A DNA stretch of 64,000 nt from Methylophilaceae bacterium. GTDB lineage: Bacteria > Pseudomonadota > Gammaproteobacteria > Burkholderiales > Methylophilaceae. The stretch lies in assembly GCA_027488395.1 (NCBI GenBank), contig JAIYBT010000021.1:1-64000 (forward strand), read 5' to 3'. The notes under the pieces were generated by a model. That model searched no databases, had not been told where the DNA came from, and saw nothing but the letters and a program-made list of their open reading frames with translations. The position numbers and the translations under genes were made by a program. This document shows, piece after piece, positions 1-8,261 of the stretch (position 1 is its first letter; every line of letters starts with the position of its first letter).

Positions 1-3000
1 AAGCCGCCGCACACGCGGCTTAGAAATATTGCAAAGAATTCATGATTTTTCATTTATAGTAAGCCGCCGCACACGCGGCTTAGAAAATTGTCATATCACC
101 AATGCCAGTACGTTTCTCGTAAGCCGCCGCACACGCGGCTTAGAAAGTACTGAACGGGAGTTAAGTAACTATTGCAGAGTAAGCCGCCGCACACGCGGCT
201 TAGAAATAAGAAGTTAGGCCGTGTGGTTTGACCTGACAGTAAGCCGCCGCACACGCGGCTTAGAAAAAAATGATTAGCGTTAGGGCAACACCAGCTAGGT
301 AAGCCGCCGCACACGCGGCTTAGAAATTGTAAAGTTAATCTTTAAATGATTTGTAAAGGTAAGCCGCCGCACACGCGGCTTAGAAAAAGAGAAGCTACAA
401 AAATACGAAGCAGGAAAGGTAAGCCGCCGCACACGCGGCTTAGAAATCTTTAACAAATGGCCCATAAGACTGCGTTGGGTAAGCCGCCGCACACGCGGCT
501 TAGAAAAGCAAGGATGTATAGCCGTGATGTGTTAGATGGTAAGCCGCCGCACACGCGGCTTAGAAATATGACCTCATTGCTGACATAGTGCAGGAGCCGT
601 AAGCCGCCGCACACGCGGCTTAGAAAGTTCGTTGTGGTTGATGGAGGCGTGATACAAAGTAAGCCGCCGCACACGCGGCTTAGAAAAGAATAAGCGCTAA
701 TGCCAGCGCCAGAGTAAAGTAAGCCGCCGCACACGCGGCTTAGAAATTCAAAGCGTCTGATCAATTCGTAAAGTGGCCGTAAGCCGCCGCACACGCGGCT
801 TAGAAAATGAAAAACATACAGCGCATCTAGTTTGGGAATGTAAGCCGCCGCACACGCGGCTTAGAAATTTTCAATCGCTGAGGATTGATCAAAATGGCAG
901 TAAGCCGCCGCACACGCAGCTTAGAAATTTGCCGCACCAATCAAAACAGCGTCTTTCTTGTAAGCCGCCGCACACGCGGCTTAGAAATTCTTCAACGTAT
1001 AACTCTTTCGCCATGCTAAGTAAGCCGCCGCACACGCGGCTTAGAAATGAGTCTTTCCAGGGCTATGTCGTATAAACCAGTAAGCCGCCGCACACGCGGC
1101 TTAGAAAAACAATAAAGTATCGTTAATTGGCTTCACTTCGTAAGCCGCCGCACACGCGGCTTAGAAATAAAATATCGTTAATACCGTGGTCGGTAGCAAG
1201 TAAGCCGCCGCACACGCGGCTTAGAAATGTGGGCTTAGATAGTGCTTTTAGGTCAATTGGTAAGCCGCCGCACACGCGGCTTAGAAAATCTATCCTCTCT
1301 CCAAGTATGGTCTTGTATCGTAAGCCGCCGCACACGCGGCTTAGAAATTTATAAACATTGCGGCCAAACTCTAAAAATCGTAAGCCGCCGCACACGCGGC
1401 TTAGAAAGTAATTCACGGCCCAATCTGCCGCATCGACTTGTAAGCCGCCGCACACGCGGCTTAGAAAAATAGTTTGATTTGCGTCATTTACTAAATTGTG
1501 TAAGCCGCCGCACACGCGGCTTAGAAACAGTCCAGCAAGTCATCAAACGGCAGATTGTGGTAAGCCGCCGCACACGCGGCTTAGAAAGAAGATGCGCAAC
1601 GCAAACTAGATGAAAAAGGGTAAGCCGCCGCACACGCGGCTTAGAAATATGTAAGCACAGTATCAACGGCGATTGATAAGTAAGCCGCCGCACACGCGGC
1701 TTAGAAAGTAGGCAGCTGGTCGAGCTCGGGCAAGAACTTGTAAGTCGCCGCACACGTGGCTTAGAAATTGGTCATCATTGAATGCTTTAGCAGCTTTAAG
1801 TAAGCCGCCGCACACGCGGCTTAGAAAAAAAAACAAATCCAGTAAATTTAAACCAATAGGTAAGCCGCCGCACACGCGGCTTAGAAAAAGTAAACCGCTT
1901 TCGTGCCCAACTTGTGCAAGTAAGCCGCCGCACACGCGGCTTAGAAAAGGTGAGGAAAGCAGCTGGGCAATGCTGGACGGTAAGCCGCCGCACACGCGGC
2001 TTAGAAATTAACCGCCCTGCAAATAAACTGCCCACGAAAGTAAGCCGCCGCACACGCGGCTTAGAAATTGCACAATTAACGTAGCTGAATTGGTGAATGG
2101 TAAGCCGCCGCACACGCGGCTTAGAAATCTTTTTGCTCGCAATAGAAGTATTCAGCCACGTAAGCCGCCGCACACGCGGCTTAGAAACTAACCCTACCCC
2201 TAGAATCCATCGTAGACGGGTAAGCCGCCGCACACGCGGCTTAGAAAATCATCATTGCAACTGGACCGTCGATTTTGTTGTAAGCCGCCGCACACGCGGC
2301 TTAGAAATTTCTTTTTCAGCTTAACCCCATGCTTAAATTGTAAGCCGCCGCACACGCGGCTTAGAAACTGTGAAGCCCACATGCAAGCCGAGGTGACAAA
2401 GTAAGCCGCCGCACACGCGGCTTAGAAATTTATATTTTCACCAAGCAATTCTCAAGATGCGTAAGCCGCCGCACACGCGGCTTAGAAATTAGTTGAAAAT
2501 CATCTCTACAATCAGTATCAGTAAGCCGCCGCACACGCGGCTTAGAAAAAAAGTACGCATAGGCGGATTAATCACAAAGCGTAAGCCGCCGCACACGCGG
2601 CTTAGAAATACAAGCGATCCGTTGCCGTAAGCCACGCTTAGTAAGCCGCCGCACACGCGGCTTAGAAATGTTTACAATTGGTCAGACCTATCAGCTAAGC
2701 GTAAGCCGCCGCACACGCGGCTTAGAAATGAAAGAAAAAACGCGAGCCGCAACAATGGGCGTAAGCCGCCGCACACGCGGCTTAGAAAGTATTCATCACA
2801 AACGATACAAGTGCATCAAAGTAAGCCGCCGCACACGCGGCTTAGAAATTGATACAGCTTGCACATGAGAATAATTTAAAATAAGCCGCCGCACACGCGG
2901 CTTAGAAAATAAGGTGTCTGAATCTGTGCGTGATGCTTCTGTAAGCCGCCGCACACGCGGCTTAGAAAAGTAAGAACTGGCGCGCCATGTCTGCCCAAGT

Positions 3001-3507
3001 GTAAGCCGCCGCACACGCGGCTTAGAAATTAGCCGCAATAATCGCATCACGCTTGGCAACGTAAGCCGCCGCACACGCGGCTTAGAAAATTATATCGGCC
3101 CGGCTGAGGTTTCGCCCGTCGTAAGCCGCCGCACACGCGGCTTAGAAACTAGTCGCACGACTGGCAAAGCTAACAGCCAGGTAAGCCGCCGCACACGTGG
3201 CTTAGAAATAAACGTGGCCGTGATTTAGAGCAGCCGCTACGTAAGCCGCCGCACACGCGGCTTAGAAATTCCTTCGGGTCGCATGGCTGGTTTTTTTTGA
3301 GTAAGCCGCCGCACACGCGGCTTAGAAAATACAAGAAATTGGCCGCTGGTTTGGCGTACCGTAAGCCGCAGCACACGCGGCTTAGAAATGTCTGGGGCGC
3401 TGAATCCGAAAGCATAGGAAGTAAGCCGCCGCACACGCGGCTTAGAAATTTGGCGGTGGTGGCTAAGCCTTTGGCTAAGAGTAAGCCGCCGCAAACATTT
3501 ATAGAAA
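1..3507 (+). CRISPR. Type I-F-like CRISPR array, 59 repeats and 58 spacers
   Basis: A 28-nt repeat recurs every 60 nt. It starts GTAAGCCGCC and ends GCGGCTTAGAAA, with a perfect 7-bp inverted repeat (AAGCCGC / GCGGCTT) around a 7-nt loop. Spacers are 32 nt, except two of 33 nt (807-839 and 2368-2400). The repeat length, 32-nt spacers, palindrome position and CTTAGAAA tail match type I-F arrays (known family). The window opens 2 nt inside the first repeat, so the array may extend further left. Almost all repeats are identical; single changes occur in the units near 901, 2881, 3181 and 3361, and two changes near 1741. The last repeat (3481-3507) keeps only its first 13 nt and final TAGAAA, which marks the leader-distal end. 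Transcription is therefore inferred to run left to right, with leader and cas genes outside the window. All overlapping ORFs here are repeat artefacts. Confidence 0.98.
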
Positions 3508-3593
3508 TAAATTGTTCTGTGATTTGTTCATAGGCTTGTGTAATTCTACTTAAGTACTTAAAGAGCTAACTGTTGCAAAACCAATACTATCTT

Positions 3594-4664
3594 TTAACTT
3601 AATCTATTCGCCTTTTTTGAGCTTTTCTTAAAGCTAGTTGTATTTTTCTTTTTAACAGTTTTCGTTGATTTTACAGCTAAAGGTACAAATCGATCTGATG
3701 AGCTTTGACTGCGAGTGCCATAGTAACTTTTTGTATCGTCTGCTTGATGCCCTAGTACCTTAGATACGAAATCAGGATTAGTCTCACTGAGTGGTGAGGC
3801 CTTGCAATCTGCAGCCATGGCATGACGTGCTGTATACGCTGTAATACTCTCTTTTCTTTTTGGCCAAATGCGTTTGCCAACGCTTCGCATATGGGTACTA
3901 ACAGAATTTGGCTTCTCGACTGTAATTATTGGATTTCCATTATCTTTGATTAGGTAAGTTTTTAGCTTTTCAGTAATCTCATTATTGGCCAACTTTAAAT
4001 TACGTATTTCTTGTCCTGAGTGCTTAGTCACTTTTGCACCGTTAATGACAGCAGATAATTCTCCATTCTCAAGTATGAGCTTAACCCCATTTTTAAGCTC
4101 TGCTGGCCGACACCCAGTTGCTAAGATGACTAACATCGGAATGTGATATTGACCTGAAGAGTTATTCGCCATTTGTTCTCGCCAATCCTCTGGCAAGCCT
4201 CTAAGCGAGATTTTTTTGCTTTTTCGTTTAGATTCAGGAATCCATCCTTCCTTGTATTCTGCAGGGAGCATTTTCGCTAATGTTATATAGCCGTCAAATG
4301 ATGGTTGCATGACCACATTTTTTACTAAATCATGTTGATTGTTACGCTGCGCTTTATCAAGTTTTTGTAATATTTCTGATAACTTTTTTAGTGCCTCATG
4401 TCGAATTGCCCTGGCATACTTCCGCAATGTTGAATATTTGGACACTGAGCGTACTTTAGCGATGATGGATTCAGCGTCATATGGATGAAGGATGTTTTTA
4501 TCTTTGCCTACACCATAGAGCCTTTTAGCAATCTTTAAATAATCAGCTTCAGTGTTCGGTGTAAGTTTAGTATCTACAGTTGCTGAATCTTCATGTGGTG
4601 GTTTTAATGCATCCCTAGCTGCTTTTATTTTTGCGTGTAGTTCACGCCTGTCTGTATCTGTCAT
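3594..4664 (-). CDS. Tyrosine recombinase / phage-type integrase
   Basis: This 356-aa protein looks like a site-specific tyrosine recombinase that cuts and rejoins DNA through a 3'-phosphotyrosine. The catalytic signature is visible in the C-terminal half: box I Arg186 (ATGCRPAEL), box II Arg280 (TARHAMAA), His306 (LGHQ) and the nucleophile, best aligned as Tyr315 (TKSYYG). The usual first His of box II (HxLR) is replaced by Tyr277, a tolerated but uncommon change. The N-terminal 150 residues are basic and helical, as expected for an arm/core-binding domain. The C-terminal tail is Lys/Ser rich. It lies 87 nt beyond the CRISPR end and is followed upstream by a hairpin-rich gap and a KfrA-like gene. 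The family assignment is firm; its target site is not known. Confidence 0.88.
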   Translation of the reverse strand: MTDTDRRELHAKIKAARDALKPPHEDSATVDTKLTPNTEADYLKIAKRLYGVGKDKNILHPYDAESIIAKVRSVSKYSTLRKYARAIRHEALKKLSEILQKLDKAQRNNQHDLVKNVVMQPSFDGYITLAKMLPAEYKEGWIPESKRKSKKISLRGLPEDWREQMANNSSGQYHIPMLVILATGCRPAELKNGVKLILENGELSAVINGAKVTKHSGQEIRNLKLANNEITEKLKTYLIKDNGNPIITVEKPNSVSTHMRSVGKRIWPKRKESITAYTARHAMAADCKASPLSETNPDFVSKVLGHQADDTKSYYGTRSQSSSDRFVPLAVKSTKTVKKKNTTSFKKSSKKANRLS

Positions 4665-4769
4665 TGTGAACTCTTCCGTCCACTAACGCGGACTCCAGCG
4701 CTGGCATATTTAACTACTAGCCACCAGCTCGGCCGTGGTACGTTCCGATATTCCGTCCTGTCTGTCACA

Positions 4770-4784
4770 TGCGACCAGGTCGCA
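4770..4784. repeat. 15-nt palindrome with GCGAC/GTCGC arms
   Basis: TGCGACCAGGTCGCA is a perfect 7-bp dyad around a central A. Its inner GCGAC/GTCGC arms recur in the hairpin at 4949-4980, which suggests that the same protein could bind both sites. Confidence 0.75.
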
Positions 4785-4879
4785 CATGCCAAACAGTCCT
4801 ACACATCTACACCAGCCAAAAGTCAGCTGTTATCTTTTCGCTCCCGCTCAAAAATAACACCTAACTTATGACTGCCACC

Positions 4880-4907
4880 CCGTTATCTGCATGCACACAG
4901 ATAACGG
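4880..4907. repeat. 10-bp perfect inverted repeat, 8-nt loop
   Basis: CCGTTATCTG at 4880-4889 is matched by CAGATAACGG at 4898-4907. No T-tract follows on either strand, so it is not a standard terminator. It is a candidate protein-binding site or cruciform. Confidence 0.8.
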
Positions 4908-4948
4908 TCATGTTGTTTTGGTTTGCCTGTTTGCTCGCTAAATTAGTC

Positions 4949-4980
4949 GATTCAACGCGACATCCCTGTCGCATTGAATC
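4949..4980. repeat. 14-bp inverted repeat with TCCC loop, flanked by TTAGTC direct repeats
   Basis: The left arm starts GATTCAAC and the right arm ends ATTGAATC. Thirteen of 14 pairs are perfect, and the remaining one becomes a G-U pair in a minus-strand transcript. TTAGTC occurs directly on both sides (4943-4948 and 4981-4986). The hairpin lies just downstream of the KfrA-like gene but lacks a U-tract, so a role as RNA processing or stability element, or as DNA site, is as likely as termination. Confidence 0.8.
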
Positions 4981-5019
4981 TTAGTCAAATGTCATCCAAG
5001 CGATCAAATCTCCGCTAAT

Positions 5020-5457
5020 CTACTTGCCGTCTAAAATGGCTAGGCTAGCTTTCAGCGCATCAACTTCAGCTCGCAATGCTAAATTTCCTGCACTCAGCTT
5101 CTCTATCTCATCAGCCTGAGCCTCGCACAAAATATCTGCTTGGATTTTCTCAGCGTATGCTTCCTCTAGTTGATTATTCAATACAATGATTTTGAATTGA
5201 TACTCTTTGTAATAGTGATCAACCTTTTTTTGAAATAGATTTTTTATGGGCAGTTTTATTTCTCTAGCAATTTCGTCTTCGGTGAGCTCTACGACAAGCA
5301 GCGTTTTATTCCATTGACGTAAATGCTCTGTAATTGTCGTGTAACTACCAAACCCAAGCTGTTGCCGAATCACGGCAACGGTAGGTTTTTGGCCTTCTGC
5401 CACTAATTTGTCGCAGATGGTTTTGATATTTTCATAATTAACTTTTGACTCTTTCAT
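5020..5457 (-). CDS. KfrA-like DNA-binding protein, short form
   Basis: A 145-aa protein whose first 60 residues resemble the KfrA N-terminal DNA-binding domain (CDKLVAEGQKPTVAVIRQ followed by LGFGSYTTITEHLRQW). The C-terminal half (about 85-140) is a heptad-like coiled coil. In the known family, KfrA is a plasmid protein with a long coiled coil that binds its own operator and helps segregation; this copy is much shorter than the usual 300 or more residues. AAGGA precedes the ATG at good spacing, and a perfect inverted repeat overlaps the candidate promoter, consistent with autoregulation. It may be a regulator or accessory factor for the neighbouring recombinase; that link is inferred from position only. 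Confidence 0.75.
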   Translation of the reverse strand: MKESKVNYENIKTICDKLVAEGQKPTVAVIRQQLGFGSYTTITEHLRQWNKTLLVVELTEDEIAREIKLPIKNLFQKKVDHYYKEYQFKIIVLNNQLEEAYAEKIQADILCEAQADEIEKLSAGNLALRAEVDALKASLAILDGK

Positions 5458-5470
5458 TAAGCTTCCTTAT

Positions 5471-5501
5471 CTGTAATGTAAATATTTTTGTTACATTACA
5501 G
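5471..5501 (-). promoter_or_regulatory. Operator of the KfrA-like gene: 11-bp perfect inverted repeat
   Basis: CTGTAATGTAA (5471-5481) and TTACATTACAG (5491-5501) are exact reverse complements around a 9-nt AT-rich centre, immediately upstream of the KfrA-like start. KfrA proteins are known to repress themselves through such sites, so autoregulation is the likely role. A related half-site, GTAACAT, lies at 5511-5517. Confidence 0.75.
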
Positions 5502-5524
5502 GTGATTTACGTAACATTTTTCAA
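5495..5524 (-). promoter_or_regulatory. Candidate promoter of the KfrA-like gene
   Basis: On the minus strand TTGAAA (5519-5524) and TGTAAT (5495-5500) are separated by 18 bp. The -10 box lies inside the operator, so a bound repressor would block polymerase. Confidence 0.5.
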
Positions 5525-5538
5525 AAAGTTTAATTTTT

Positions 5539-6210
5539 TTATTCAATCCTTAATAGCGCACTCAAAGCCACCTTAGGGTTTGGATAATTATTCTTGATGT
5601 AATCAAGGCAATCATCCCAAGTCACAACGGTCTCTTCACCCAGTATTTGTCGCAGTTCTTCGACGTTTTGAATGTGGCCAGCCTCTAGTTGTTTAAACAT
5701 GTCTTTAGGTAGCGACAACATGTTCTCAGCACCTAGACTGCCACCACGCCATTTCACCTTGGGCAACACCTCCGGTCCGATGGGTTTAGCAACTGGAGAG
5801 TGAATGCCGATACGTTTTCTTATCACAACGACAATTTGATGCGGGTCGTATAAAAAAAATACCTGGTTATCTACTACGCGTTTTAAATTGAATGATCGGC
5901 TACCCTCACGCCATACACCGGCGAGTTCAGCACCATTTACAAATAATCGTTCTACTGCGTATTGAAGATCATCCAGTACCACACCAACCACCCAATAATG
6001 CACTTGATCACTCTTGAGCATGCCGTTATGCATGCCTAACGCGCTATATATCGCTTCAGACTTCTCTGCAGGAATGGGTCTACGCCCACCCATCGCATCT
6101 GTTAAATTAGTGGTATGAATATCTGCTTCTTTTGCGATCTCCTGAACTGTTTTATGCCTTAACCTAAAGATACATTTGATTAGATCCGATAAATCATTGT
6201 TATTAAACAA
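5539..6210 (-). CDS. HTH-containing protein of unknown function
   Basis: I do not recognise the family. The 223-aa product starts with a probable helix-turn-helix at about residues 8-50 (TVQEIAKEADIHTTNLTDAM), as in phage-type repressors, followed by a mixed alpha/beta region of about 150 residues without an obvious enzymatic motif. The start is a TTG (6208-6210): AGGAGG lies 5 nt upstream and no in-frame ATG fits better. It is transcribed away from the small gene at 6302, and the 91-bp gap between them holds a good promoter for the rightward pair. A natural guess is a repressor that controls the recombinase operon, but nothing in the sequence proves it. Confidence 0.7.
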   Translation of the reverse strand: MFNNNDLSDLIKCIFRLRHKTVQEIAKEADIHTTNLTDAMGGRRPIPAEKSEAIYSALGMHNGMLKSDQVHYWVVGVVLDDLQYAVERLFVNGAELAGVWREGSRSFNLKRVVDNQVFFLYDPHQIVVVIRKRIGIHSPVAKPIGPEVLPKVKWRGGSLGAENMLSLPKDMFKQLEAGHIQNVEELRQILGEETVVTWDDCLDYIKNNYPNPKVALSALLRIE

Positions 6211-6229
6211 ATCTACCTCCTAAATAAAC

Positions 6230-6258
6230 TTGATTTGAAACATTGTGATAAATATAAT
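6230..6258 (+). promoter_or_regulatory. Sigma-70-type promoter for the small gene and serine recombinase
   Basis: TTGATT (6230-6235) and a perfect TATAAT (6253-6258) are spaced by 17 bp, placing the start of transcription near 6265, about 37 nt before the ATG at 6302. Confidence 0.7.
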
Positions 6259-6301
6259 AACCCATATAAACTCAATGTCAAATCCACACAAAGGAATAAA
6301 A

Positions 6302-6511
6302 ATGCGCATTGGAAAACCGAAAGATGTATCAACCATCTATGATCAAGATACTGATGAAAGCTTCATCACCTCATTCATTGACGACCTAAAGTTACAGATT
6401 ACGATTCAATTAAAAGCGCGTAATGTAAAAGCGGAATCACGCGTATTAGAAAAAATATTAAAAGAGTCTCTGGATGAGCTACCACCGACGACCTTATTTC
6501 ATGTCAGTTAG
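6302..6511 (+). CDS. Small protein of unknown function next to the recombinase
   Basis: A 69-aa acidic/basic mixed protein without recognised family. The ATG at 6302 is chosen over the longer frame beginning at 6245 because AAGGA sits 6 nt upstream and the sigma-70 promoter reaches about 6258. Helical segments around ITSFIDDLKLQITIQLK and SRVLEKILKESL are visible. It is the first gene of an apparent two-gene unit with the serine recombinase, so a recombination directionality factor or regulator is possible, but this is only an inference from position. Confidence 0.6.
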   Translation: MRIGKPKDVSTIYDQDTDESFITSFIDDLKLQITIQLKARNVKAESRVLEKILKESLDELPPTTLFHVS

Positions 6512-6520
6512 TTAAATTAA

Positions 6521-6556
6521 AAAGTAGCCTAAGTTAAAAAAGTAGCCCAAGTTAAA
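6521..6556 (+). repeat. Two tandem 18-bp direct repeats before the recombinase gene
   Basis: AAAGTAGCC-T-AAGTTAAA (6521-6538) is followed at once by the same 18 nt with C in place of the T (6539-6556). AGTTAAAT occurs at 6509-6516 and again at the second copy's end. The repeats lie in the 86-bp gap before the serine recombinase and may be a regulator or recombinase site. Confidence 0.8.
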
Positions 6557-6597
6557 TCAAAGAACATTACAAAGCAGCAGAAAAACAGGAGAAGCCA

Positions 6598-8250
6598 ATG
6601 CGAATTGCGACATATGTACGGGTATCAACGGTACGTCAGGCGGAGAACGATTTATCGATCCCTGACCAAACGCGGCAATTACGTGAATGGGCTAAAGCCA
6701 ATGGTCACATGATCGTGGAAGAATTTGTAGAACCTGGTGCTTCTGCTACAGATGATAAGCGACCAGAGTTTCAACGCATGATTGAAGCTGCACTGGTGAA
6801 ACCAGCGCAATTTGATTTGATTGTGATTCACTCATTCTCCCGCTTCTTTAGAGATGCTGTGCAATTTGGCTTGTATGAGCGCAAGTTAGCTAAAAACAAA
6901 GTACGGGTAATTTCAATTACCCAACAAACCAGTGACGATACTGCAGGTGAGATGATGCGGCGCATTATCAATACCTTTGATGAATACAGCTCAAAAGAAA
7001 ACTCCAAGCACACCAGTCGTGCTATGCGTGAAAACGCACGCCAAGGCTTCTTTAACGGCTCTAAACCGCCTTATGGCTATGATTCAGTCACCACAGATGT
7101 ACAAGGCAGCCGTGGACGTAAAAAGAAGAAGCTAGCGATTAATCCTGACGAGTCAGTCATTGTTAGCAAAATCTACGATATGTACACCTATGGCAACGAC
7201 GGCAGAGACTATGGTTGCAAGGAAATTGCGATGCATTTGAATAAAACTGGCTATCGCATGCGAGGCCAGCCTTTCACGATGCAGAAAGTCCACACCATCC
7301 TCTCTGACACGCTTTATAACGGTGATTATTATTTCAATGTGATCAAATCAAAAACGGGCGAAACTCGGCCTGCAGATGAATGGGTGAAGACAAGCATCCC
7401 TGCAATCATTGATGCGCACCAATTTGAGTTGGTGAAAGCGAAAAGAGAGGCGCGAACACCTTCAACCTCACCTATCCAAAGAGTCTTATCAAAAACTCTA
7501 CTCACTGGTTTGATTAAATGTGGGGAGTGCGGTGGCTTTATGACACAAGCGACTGGAAAGTACGGGCTGTATAAATATTACAAATGCACTAGTCGATGCA
7601 GTAAAGGCAATGTTGCATGTAGCAGCAAATCACTGCCAATGGATAAAGTCGATAAATTGGTGATGGAAGCGTTAACGCAAAAGGTATTCACACCTGCGAA
7701 ATTACAAGAGATTTTGACTGAATATCGACAAAACCTTTTAGCACAAGACGCTACTATCAGTGAAAAAGTAACATTGATCAATCGACAAATTCAACAGGTT
7801 GAAGAACGACAAAAACGTTTGCTTGATGCCATTGAGCTTGGTGCATTAGAACTAGATGAAATGACACTGGAGCGATCGCAAGATTTGAAACGTTCAAAGG
7901 AAGCGTTACTGATCGAGAAGCATAAACTTCAAAAGTCTGATAACGATGCCTTTCCAGAATTACGTGCTAGTAAGCTCGAAAAGCTTAGCAAGCTTATTTC
8001 AAGCAAGCTATTAAGTACCAATCCAGATACTGCAAAAGGCTACCTAAAATTATTGGTTGATCAAGTGACTGTGAAAGAAAATGTGATTGAAATGAAGGGG
8101 CCAATTATCGGTTTAGTGCGGGCTATAAAAGCAAAAGACGAAAAAAATGGGTACTTGAATCAAGTACCCACTTCCCTCATGGTTTGGCGCGCCCGGCGGG
8201 AGTCGAACCCACGACCCTTGGCTTCGGAAACCAATACTCTATCCAGCTGA
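6598..8250 (+). CDS. Large serine recombinase (resolvase/invertase superfamily)
   Basis: This 550-aa protein is a large serine recombinase, an integrase-type enzyme that uses a 5'-phosphoserine link. The resolvase domain covers about 1-150, with nucleophile Ser10 (YVRVST) and the conserved SRFFRD segment. The Recombinase domain follows (KPPYGYD), then a zinc ribbon near 305-345 (CGECGG, later CTSRC and AC), then a coiled coil (about 375-460). AGGAGA lies 7 nt before the ATG. The last 25 or so codons run through a terminator hairpin and into the antisense strand of tRNA-Arg; the tail ESNPRPLASETNTLS is the familiar translation of a tRNA read backwards. The functional C-terminus probably lies before this. 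The arrangement suggests the element inserted at the tRNA. Confidence 0.92.
   Translation: MRIATYVRVSTVRQAENDLSIPDQTRQLREWAKANGHMIVEEFVEPGASATDDKRPEFQRMIEAALVKPAQFDLIVIHSFSRFFRDAVQFGLYERKLAKNKVRVISITQQTSDDTAGEMMRRIINTFDEYSSKENSKHTSRAMRENARQGFFNGSKPPYGYDSVTTDVQGSRGRKKKKLAINPDESVIVSKIYDMYTYGNDGRDYGCKEIAMHLNKTGYRMRGQPFTMQKVHTILSDTLYNGDYYFNVIKSKTGETRPADEWVKTSIPAIIDAHQFELVKAKREARTPSTSPIQRVLSKTLLTGLIKCGECGGFMTQATGKYGLYKYYKCTSRCSKGNVACSSKSLPMDKVDKLVMEALTQKVFTPAKLQEILTEYRQNLLAQDATISEKVTLINRQIQQVEERQKRLLDAIELGALELDEMTLERSQDLKRSKEALLIEKHKLQKSDNDAFPELRASKLEKLSKLISSKLLSTNPDTAKGYLKLLVDQVTVKENVIEMKGPIIGLVRAIKAKDEKNGYLNQVPTSLMVWRARRESNPRPLASETNTLSS
8141..8169 (-). terminator. Rho-independent terminator of tRNA-Arg, inside the recombinase ORF
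   Basis: GGGTACTTGA (8149-8158) pairs perfectly with TCAAGTACCC (8160-8169). Read on the minus strand it is followed by ATTTTTTT, giving a strong intrinsic terminator 15 nt past the tRNA 3' end. Confidence 0.88.
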
Positions 8251-8261
8251 GCTACGGGCGC
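8185..8261 (-). tRNA. tRNA-Arg, anticodon CCG
   Basis: On the minus strand the sequence folds as a full cloverleaf of 77 nt including an encoded CCA end (8185-8187). The acceptor arms are GCGCCCG and CGGGCGC, the T arm is GTGGG-TTCGACT-CCCGC, and the anticodon stem encloses loop TTCCGAA, giving anticodon CCG for codon CGG. The gene has its own -10 box upstream and terminator downstream. The serine recombinase ORF overlaps its 3' two-thirds in antisense, marking it as the probable attachment site of the island. Confidence 0.97.

Follow-up and report, generated by a model that had tools for sequence, protein, structure and literature searches.

A probable tRNA-Arg genomic island carrying CRISPR-Cas in a Methylophilaceae bacterium, with a large serine recombinase as its likely integrase

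Genes and boundaries at the tRNA-Arg locus

The window analysed here is a stretch of 64,000 nt from a Methylophilaceae bacterium (GenBank assembly GCA_027488395.1, contig JAIYBT010000021.1, positions 1-64,000 of the forward strand), and is contig C17, from its first base, of a genome (G000) assembled into 27 contigs. Its left end displays part of a CRISPR array, followed by a group of genes that runs up to a tRNA-Arg(CCG) and harbours a large serine recombinase (LSR), a putative tyrosine recombinase, a KfrA-like protein and a helix-turn-helix (HTH) protein. The best explanation for this arrangement, to which we assign a probability of about 0.88, is one island integrated at tRNA-Arg by the LSR and carrying CRISPR-Cas as cargo. 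The initial annotation of this DNA had placed an island at 3594-8261; both recombinases, the KfrA and HTH proteins, a small gene and the tRNA-Arg are all present there as it described, and are mobile-element genes, although this interval proves to be only the right-hand ~4.6 kb of a larger island. The features concerned, including attP, the predicted attachment site of the circular form, are as follows.

1-3508 (+): leader-distal part of the CRISPR array (28-nt repeat, ~60-nt period)
3594-4664 (-): putative tyrosine recombinase, last gene of the HTH-KfrA-recombinase operon
5020-5457 (-): KfrA-like DNA-binding protein (KfrA_N, PF11740, E = 2.3e-15)
5539-6210 (-): HTH/repressor-like protein, first gene of the operon
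6245-6511 (+): small gene just upstream of the LSR
6598-8250 (+): LSR, likely integrase (Pfam, alignment and tail analysis)
8149-8169 (-): hairpin and U-run within the 3′ codons of the LSR, interpreted as terminating the tRNA transcript
8164-8184 (+): predicted right attP arm, GTACCCA-N14 (family form GTGCCCA-N14-TGG)
8185-8193 (+): core TGGCGCGCC, right boundary of the island, present both at the 3′ end of tRNA-Arg and at the left end
8185-8261 (-): tRNA-Arg(CCG), intact target (ARAGORN, Rfam)
C27:195398-202806: leader-proximal part of the array and the cas genes, on a second contig

The initial annotation had proposed looking to the left for a duplicated tRNA 3′ end that would mark the other boundary, and one was found at C27:177366-177374. 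It closes a 61-base stretch (C27:177314-177374), detected by a DNA search with the island, that is 87% identical to the right end and finishes in TGGCGCGCC, the sequence of the final 9 bases of the tRNA-Arg gene. The island comprises C27:177366-202806 (25,441 bp) and C17:1-8184 (8,184 bp), a total of 33,625 bp to which an unassembled part of the array has to be added. Its G+C content is ~0.40, compared to a mean of 0.483 (standard deviation 0.026) for 2-kb pieces of the backbone. Besides CRISPR-Cas, the left part on C27 carries a CusA-like RND efflux operon, a two-component system, a Fic protein, a PEP-CTERM-like protein and a GGDEF-EAL protein, then two proteins that by eye possess a PEP-CTERM-like end.

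Beyond the left boundary on C27 lie blh, crtY and crtB (named by eye, with homologues found in relatives), and the cytochrome c and apaH genes lie to the right of the tRNA in the window. A relative with an empty tRNA-Arg(CCG) site, another of the comparisons initially proposed, exists in the form of one genome, G006, where the order crtB-crtY-blh-tRNA-Arg(CCG)-cytochrome c-apaH is found with nothing listed between these genes, without the island and with manC absent between them. A blh homologue was found in 9 of 120 genomes, our own included, and among the eight others it adjoins tRNA-Arg, by the listed positions, only in G006; six have blh apart from tRNA-Arg or on another contig, and for G089 the tRNA position is not listed. 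The two ends, the island-free arrangement in a relative, the gene content and the open frame across the rejoined attP (below) are all read directly from sequence. Since the tRNA end is copied on the left, G006 lacks the island and the array continues on C27, the CRISPR-Cas locus would be cargo of one element; the initial suggestion that an integrated element carries it is borne out, as the array and cas genes lie between both island ends. The LSR at the tRNA is most likely the integrase, and the element may still be able to excise.

The left copy has a history of its own. Over 60 bp it translates as an LSR C-terminus (DEKNEHLIQVPISLTVWRA versus DEKNGYLNQVPTSLMVWRA), and blastn revealed no further LSR similarity beside it within the 600 bases examined. 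This suggests that C27:177314-177365, which is outside the left boundary, may be a relic of the last ~20 codons of an earlier, related LSR element at the same site. That the 60-bp repeat is a plain duplication of the tRNA terminator was considered and rejected, as the left copy reads as an LSR C-terminus and the tRNA of G006 has no such hairpin by our own terminator criterion.

Reuse of the tRNA site is also suggested by other genomes. In G007 and G020 the end of the LSR is followed by a 3′ fragment of a tRNA, after which other DNA takes over; in the loci concerned (L075 at G007:C180 and L077 at G020:C17:35165-37563) this fragment is of tRNA-Arg and breaks off in the anticodon region. A full tRNA is situated 2.2 kb further on in G020, and beside an open reading frame of 383 aa on another contig in G007 (L049), suggesting that later elements inserted between the LSR element and the tRNA. 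In G014 and G021, restriction-like genes, recognised by eye from the first residues of the proteins, occupy the left side of the tRNA.

The CRISPR-Cas cargo and the accessory module

The array on C27 is preceded by cas1, cas2-3, cas7fv, cas5fv and cas6f, in that order and all with PADLOC matches; cas5fv is also matched by Pfam, and cas1, cas6f and the first piece of cas7fv by NCBIfam. The system is thus of type I-F2 (I-Fv), and a search of 159 genomes recovered cas5fv from this genome alone. Four of the cas genes are open frames, with the exception being cas7fv, which is interrupted by an in-frame TGA (L014:13989-13991, G000:C27) into two pieces that match Cas7fv separately; interference may be lost with the adaptation genes kept, or the break may be an assembly error. 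A CRISPR-associated transposon (I-F3) was rejected as an alternative given the presence of cas1 and cas2-3, no profile search having been aimed at Tn7-like genes.

The two contigs appear to be joined through the array. Both end within a CRISPR repeat, and all 66 repeat copies in the genome (at most 2 mismatches) are located on the same strand at either C27:202241-202748 or C17:59-3448, with a degenerate last repeat discernible by eye at ~3481-3508. The assembly being in 27 contigs and the join drawn from contig ends, the two ends could in principle be CRISPR fragments from different replicons or copies; a single repeat family, the shared strand, the repeat at both contig ends and the lack of a third location among the 66 copies leave this exceedingly improbable.

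Within the right-hand genes, the HTH, KfrA and recombinase genes form an operon divergent from the small gene and the LSR. The identity of gene 3594-4664 is less firm than the KfrA and LSR calls. No Pfam family was matched at E ≤ 0.01, its XerA match is weak (E = 0.23, ranked under three neuroserpin matches of the same search) and a single-sequence structure model reached a pLDDT (predicted local distance difference test) of 44. Of its four homologues, two display a weak Phage_integrase match and two a weak ResT-TelK match. Five residues, R186, K211, R280, H306 and Y315, are invariant in the four homologues, down to 31% identity, and we take them to be the catalytic residues of a tyrosine recombinase, on the assumption that the set reads R-K-(H/K)xxR-(H/W)-Y; the position of the first H in box II is Y277. 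The gene is therefore described as a putative tyrosine recombinase. For the HTH protein, the Pfam search returned no family, with a repressor match only at E = 0.03; its homologues, 36-38% identical, adjoin LSRs in G018 and G046. At the corresponding position, G018 carries a homologue of the small gene (55% identity over 66 residues).

The order HTH-KfrA-recombinase is also seen in L141, where it is again divergent from an LSR (29-39% identity), and in G046:C214, where the adjoining LSR match covers 26 residues at the start of the contig. LSR relatives numbered 276 in genome contigs, of which the best 80 were kept as loci. A tblastn search of these 80 at 1e-4, 53 of which have more than 2.5 kb upstream, detected the HTH gene in three, KfrA in four and the recombinase in two, and in 47 a Rep_trans-like protein lies just upstream of the LSR in place of the module (the Rep_trans profile on one such protein gave E = 1e-4, below the curated cut-off). 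There are two architectures beside LSRs of this family, and the recombinase-KfrA pair of the window is the rarer. In G018 the order is LSR-small gene-HTH-KfrA, followed by a MobV/Mob_Pre-like relaxase (L074:4614-5534) in place of the recombinase, and this relative of the island may be mobilizable.

The initial annotation had noted two unrelated recombinases and suggested that the CRISPR locus may be carried by, or stacked within, an integrated element. That the CRISPR lies within an integrated element stands, but the recombinase pair is poor evidence of two elements: because the operon recurs beside LSRs in two other genomes, the putative tyrosine recombinase is probably part of the LSR module, and its reading as the mark of a second, stacked element was rejected. 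The operon might serve as an accessory module for control, partition or dimer resolution of the circle.

A broader version of the stacking idea is that CRISPR-Cas is a separate element that entered near an LSR element, either alone or together with the tyrosine recombinase and KfrA, or that several elements fused between the outer ends. Consistent with this are the relic LSR end just outside the left boundary, the signs of tandem insertion at this tRNA in G007 and G020, and a KfrA-recombinase pair with no LSR detected near tRNA-Leu in G020:C39. Left ends were sought by a rule (TGG, 18-22 bases, TG(A/G)G(C/T)AC and at least 6 core bases common with the right end) for which ~0.9 chance matches are expected per scan, and in the 34,156-base stretch scanned it found no second left end inside the island. 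The outer arms, in addition, match each other as one dyad (GTACCCACTTCCCTCAT / GTGCTCACTTCCCTCAT, 15/17 bases equal), and the operon adjoins LSRs in L141 and G046, which are short loci where no cas search was made. On balance a composite origin is unlikely, and one element with CRISPR-Cas as cargo is retained.

The LSR family, its tRNA targets and attP

The LSR has Resolvase, Recombinase and Zn_ribbon domains (Pfam), and residues R8, S10, Q24 and R82, presumably catalytic, are invariant in 10 aligned sequences. Its codon 529 lies at 8182-8184, and, with the element integrated, its reading frame continues into the antisense tRNA, which supplies the tail from 8188 onward. A similar position is common amongst its relatives. 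At least 60 bases follow the match, and hence a 3′ flank can be read, in 76 of the 80 loci; a complete tRNA beginning -30 to +80 bases from the end of the LSR match, our definition of abutment, is present in 47 of these and at the 5′ end in none. Each of these 47 tRNAs runs antisense to the LSR (Asn 24, Arg 17, Glu 3, His 2, Ala 1). A T-arm motif follows in 66 of the 76, compared to 136 of 1540 random 175-base windows, and in 52 of these 66 GTGCCC or GTACCC is found exactly 21 bases before TGG; in the other 14 the arm is closer in 12 (by eye mostly as an earlier TGG was taken by the search) or missing in two.

As a control, 25 PF07508 loci from 61 genomes were divided into family members (42% identity or more, n = 10) and others (n = 15). 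The arm motif is present in 9 of the 10 members versus none of the 14 scorable others; in the tenth, G028, the open reading frame is cut by a stop, and the gene end carries the motif in a separate look. Six of these members adjoin a complete tRNA. The target labels, part of which come from acceptor-stem sequence only, are clustered on a tree of 79 LSRs, with 14 changes over all 7 label groups versus a shuffled mean of 37.4; two of these groups are kinds of 'unassigned', and Asn and Arg require 7 changes each. The branch of our own LSR has 20 rows, 19 labelled Arg and one unassigned.

It is also conceivable that the tyrosine recombinase, rather than the LSR, integrated the island, as tyrosine integrases are the usual integrases of tRNA genes (PMC4383910), and an 83% identical relative lies 1.7 kb from tRNA-Leu in G020. 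The gene, however, is at neither end of the island, the attachment arm is inside the LSR gene, and no more than 2 of the 80 LSR loci gave a match to the recombinase while 47 of 76 abut a tRNA, such that this possibility is very unlikely and the LSR remains the preferred integrase.

The search by the left-end rule covered our own stretch, four long relatives and, from the 80 loci, every one in which the right core could be read; the loci span at most 6 kb upstream, so that the search favours small elements and misses larger ones. Left ends were found for our element and 10 others, the latter 4.4-6.5 kb long. Rejoined, the ends usually take the form GTGCCCA-N14-core-N14-TGGGCAC, and the predicted attP of our element in the circle reads GTACCCA...TGGCGCGCC...TGAGCACTGG. 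This predicted dyad would lie inside the LSR gene. Across the rejoined attP the LSR frame is open in all 11 elements with both ends, and stops 17-21 codons after the core TGG in 10 (at 29 in the other), with the other two frames stopping at 3 to 121. The tail so formed begins (G/E)(H/Y)W in 11/11, with 6-10 further residues in 10/11; that of our LSR in the circle would end ...WRAVDEGSEHWKINVDIN. The GH part is dictated by the DNA motif; a genuine C-terminus is indicated by the additional W codon together with the position of the stop. As the frame is open across the rejoined site, antisense-tRNA residues would take the place of roughly the last 15-20 of the enzyme upon integration.

The 10 small elements (L145, L162, L175, L185, L188, L201, L214, L217, G027 at L110 and G086 at L115) look like integrated mini-replicons. 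By tblastn, a Rep_trans-like protein is present in seven of the eight L-numbered ones (not L217), G027 and G086 being outside that search.

From these observations a scheme can be proposed in which the LSR would recombine the dyad attP with the 3′ end of tRNA-Arg(CCG). The tRNA would be left whole, the original flank would move to the far end, behind the 9-bp copy of the tRNA end, and the LSR tail would be native in the circle and antisense-tRNA in the chromosome. The hairpin in the window adds a further layer, with a 55-base fold of -25.2 kcal/mol and its U-run on the tRNA strand. By our criterion, 25 of 64 relatives are terminator-like versus 67 of 1280 shuffles (simple, not dinucleotide-preserving), and a terminator therefore holds for part of the family only. 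A tentative generalisation, on balance doubtful in its full form, is that this is a widespread, so far undescribed family of serine integrases that use an attP within the 3′ codons of their own genes to target tRNA 3′ ends (Asn, Arg, Glu, His, Ala). A single ~40-bp stretch would code for integrase residues while also acting as attP arm and, for some members, as terminator of the tRNA. The tail swap could then function as a built-in sensor that biases integration versus excision.

Several points weigh against these readings. The join of C27 and C17 rests on two contig ends inside a repeat array, and the island-free arrangement comes from one fragmented assembly (G006), whose tRNA is without a terminator-like flank and without manC beside it. 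LSR-like sequence over 60 bp to the left of the left core indicates that the history was not a single clean insertion. Amongst the relatives, 29 of 76 are without an abutting complete tRNA and 10 of 76 without the T-arm motif; by eye, the tRNA of two of the 10 (L156 and L183) shows a variant T-arm, and eight leave the tRNA sequence soon after the core, including L172, which encodes the same protein as L173, itself abutting tRNA-Asn. One of the 15 non-family LSR loci in the control also overlaps a tRNA. Left ends were not found for two of the four long relatives (G004 and G014), and those of G086 and L201 are the weakest, with a core of only 6 bases. The reconstructed attP (C17:8164-8193 plus C27:177366 onward) is a dyad of odd length, 51 bp with N14 on each side of the 9-bp core, which sits poorly with a symmetric 2-bp crossover.

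Lastly, an intact attP was not found in viral contigs, where scans for two exact forms gave 0 and 0 stretches and four of six LSR loci were inspected, or at three plasmid LSRs looked at from 311 records. Of the viral loci, L232 and L233 run by eye into tRNA-like 3′ ends for which ARAGORN called none, L231 has the core followed by other sequence with TGGGCAC at another spacing, and L236 is a 25% identical partial match. One plasmid LSR abuts a complete tRNA-Arg, a second displays the arm motif and a T-arm-like stretch with a broken LSR frame, and the third has neither.

The control locus that overlaps a tRNA, L261 (G018:C201), is an LSR without detectable similarity to that of the window (tblastn, E ≤ 1e-3), which runs antisense into the 3′ end of tRNA-Leu. 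Abutment alone is therefore no mark of the family, and the use of tRNA genes is not confined to it.

Relationship to known islands and integrases

The island explains the probable origin of this bacterium's CRISPR-Cas, as cargo of an integrated element, and gives both of its ends. The LSR family runs counter to the view that use of tRNA genes is known from tyrosine integrases alone, and its targets change between branches of the tree, mostly from one tRNA to another. With an attP predicted for 11 elements, target choice and the effect of tail exchange are directly testable. Serine integrases specific for tRNA genes were called unknown in 2014, and no statement to the contrary is present in the accessible portions of PMC12884075, PMC12424338, PMC7426155, PMC8637289 and PMC12765450, with most subscription journals outside this coverage. 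Later databases (TIGER) may hold tRNA islands with serine integrases without comment.

With regard to known systems, the island resembles tRNA genomic islands of the Islander type (PMC4383910) in having an integrase on board, an intact tRNA at one end and a displaced tRNA 3′ fragment at the other, but its likely integrase is a serine and not a tyrosine recombinase. An attachment site within the integrase gene, with integration changing the C-terminus, is shared with the streptococcal integrative and conjugative elements in rumA (PMC4701971) and with phage Mx8 (PMC6070905); rumA, however, is a protein gene, whereas this LSR family has tRNA targets, and Mx8 uses a tyrosine integrase rather than an LSR. 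The nearest likeness in cargo is to the VPI-6 islands of V. cholerae with I-Fv (PMC6360697), where cas1-cas3-cas7fv-cas5fv-cas6f are likewise found on an integrated island, albeit with a tyrosine integrase instead of an LSR, in another host group and at another site. CRISPR islands and in-gene attachment sites are therefore already known, and what is new here, priority not being claimed, is a putative family of tRNA-directed serine integrases with attP in their own gene.

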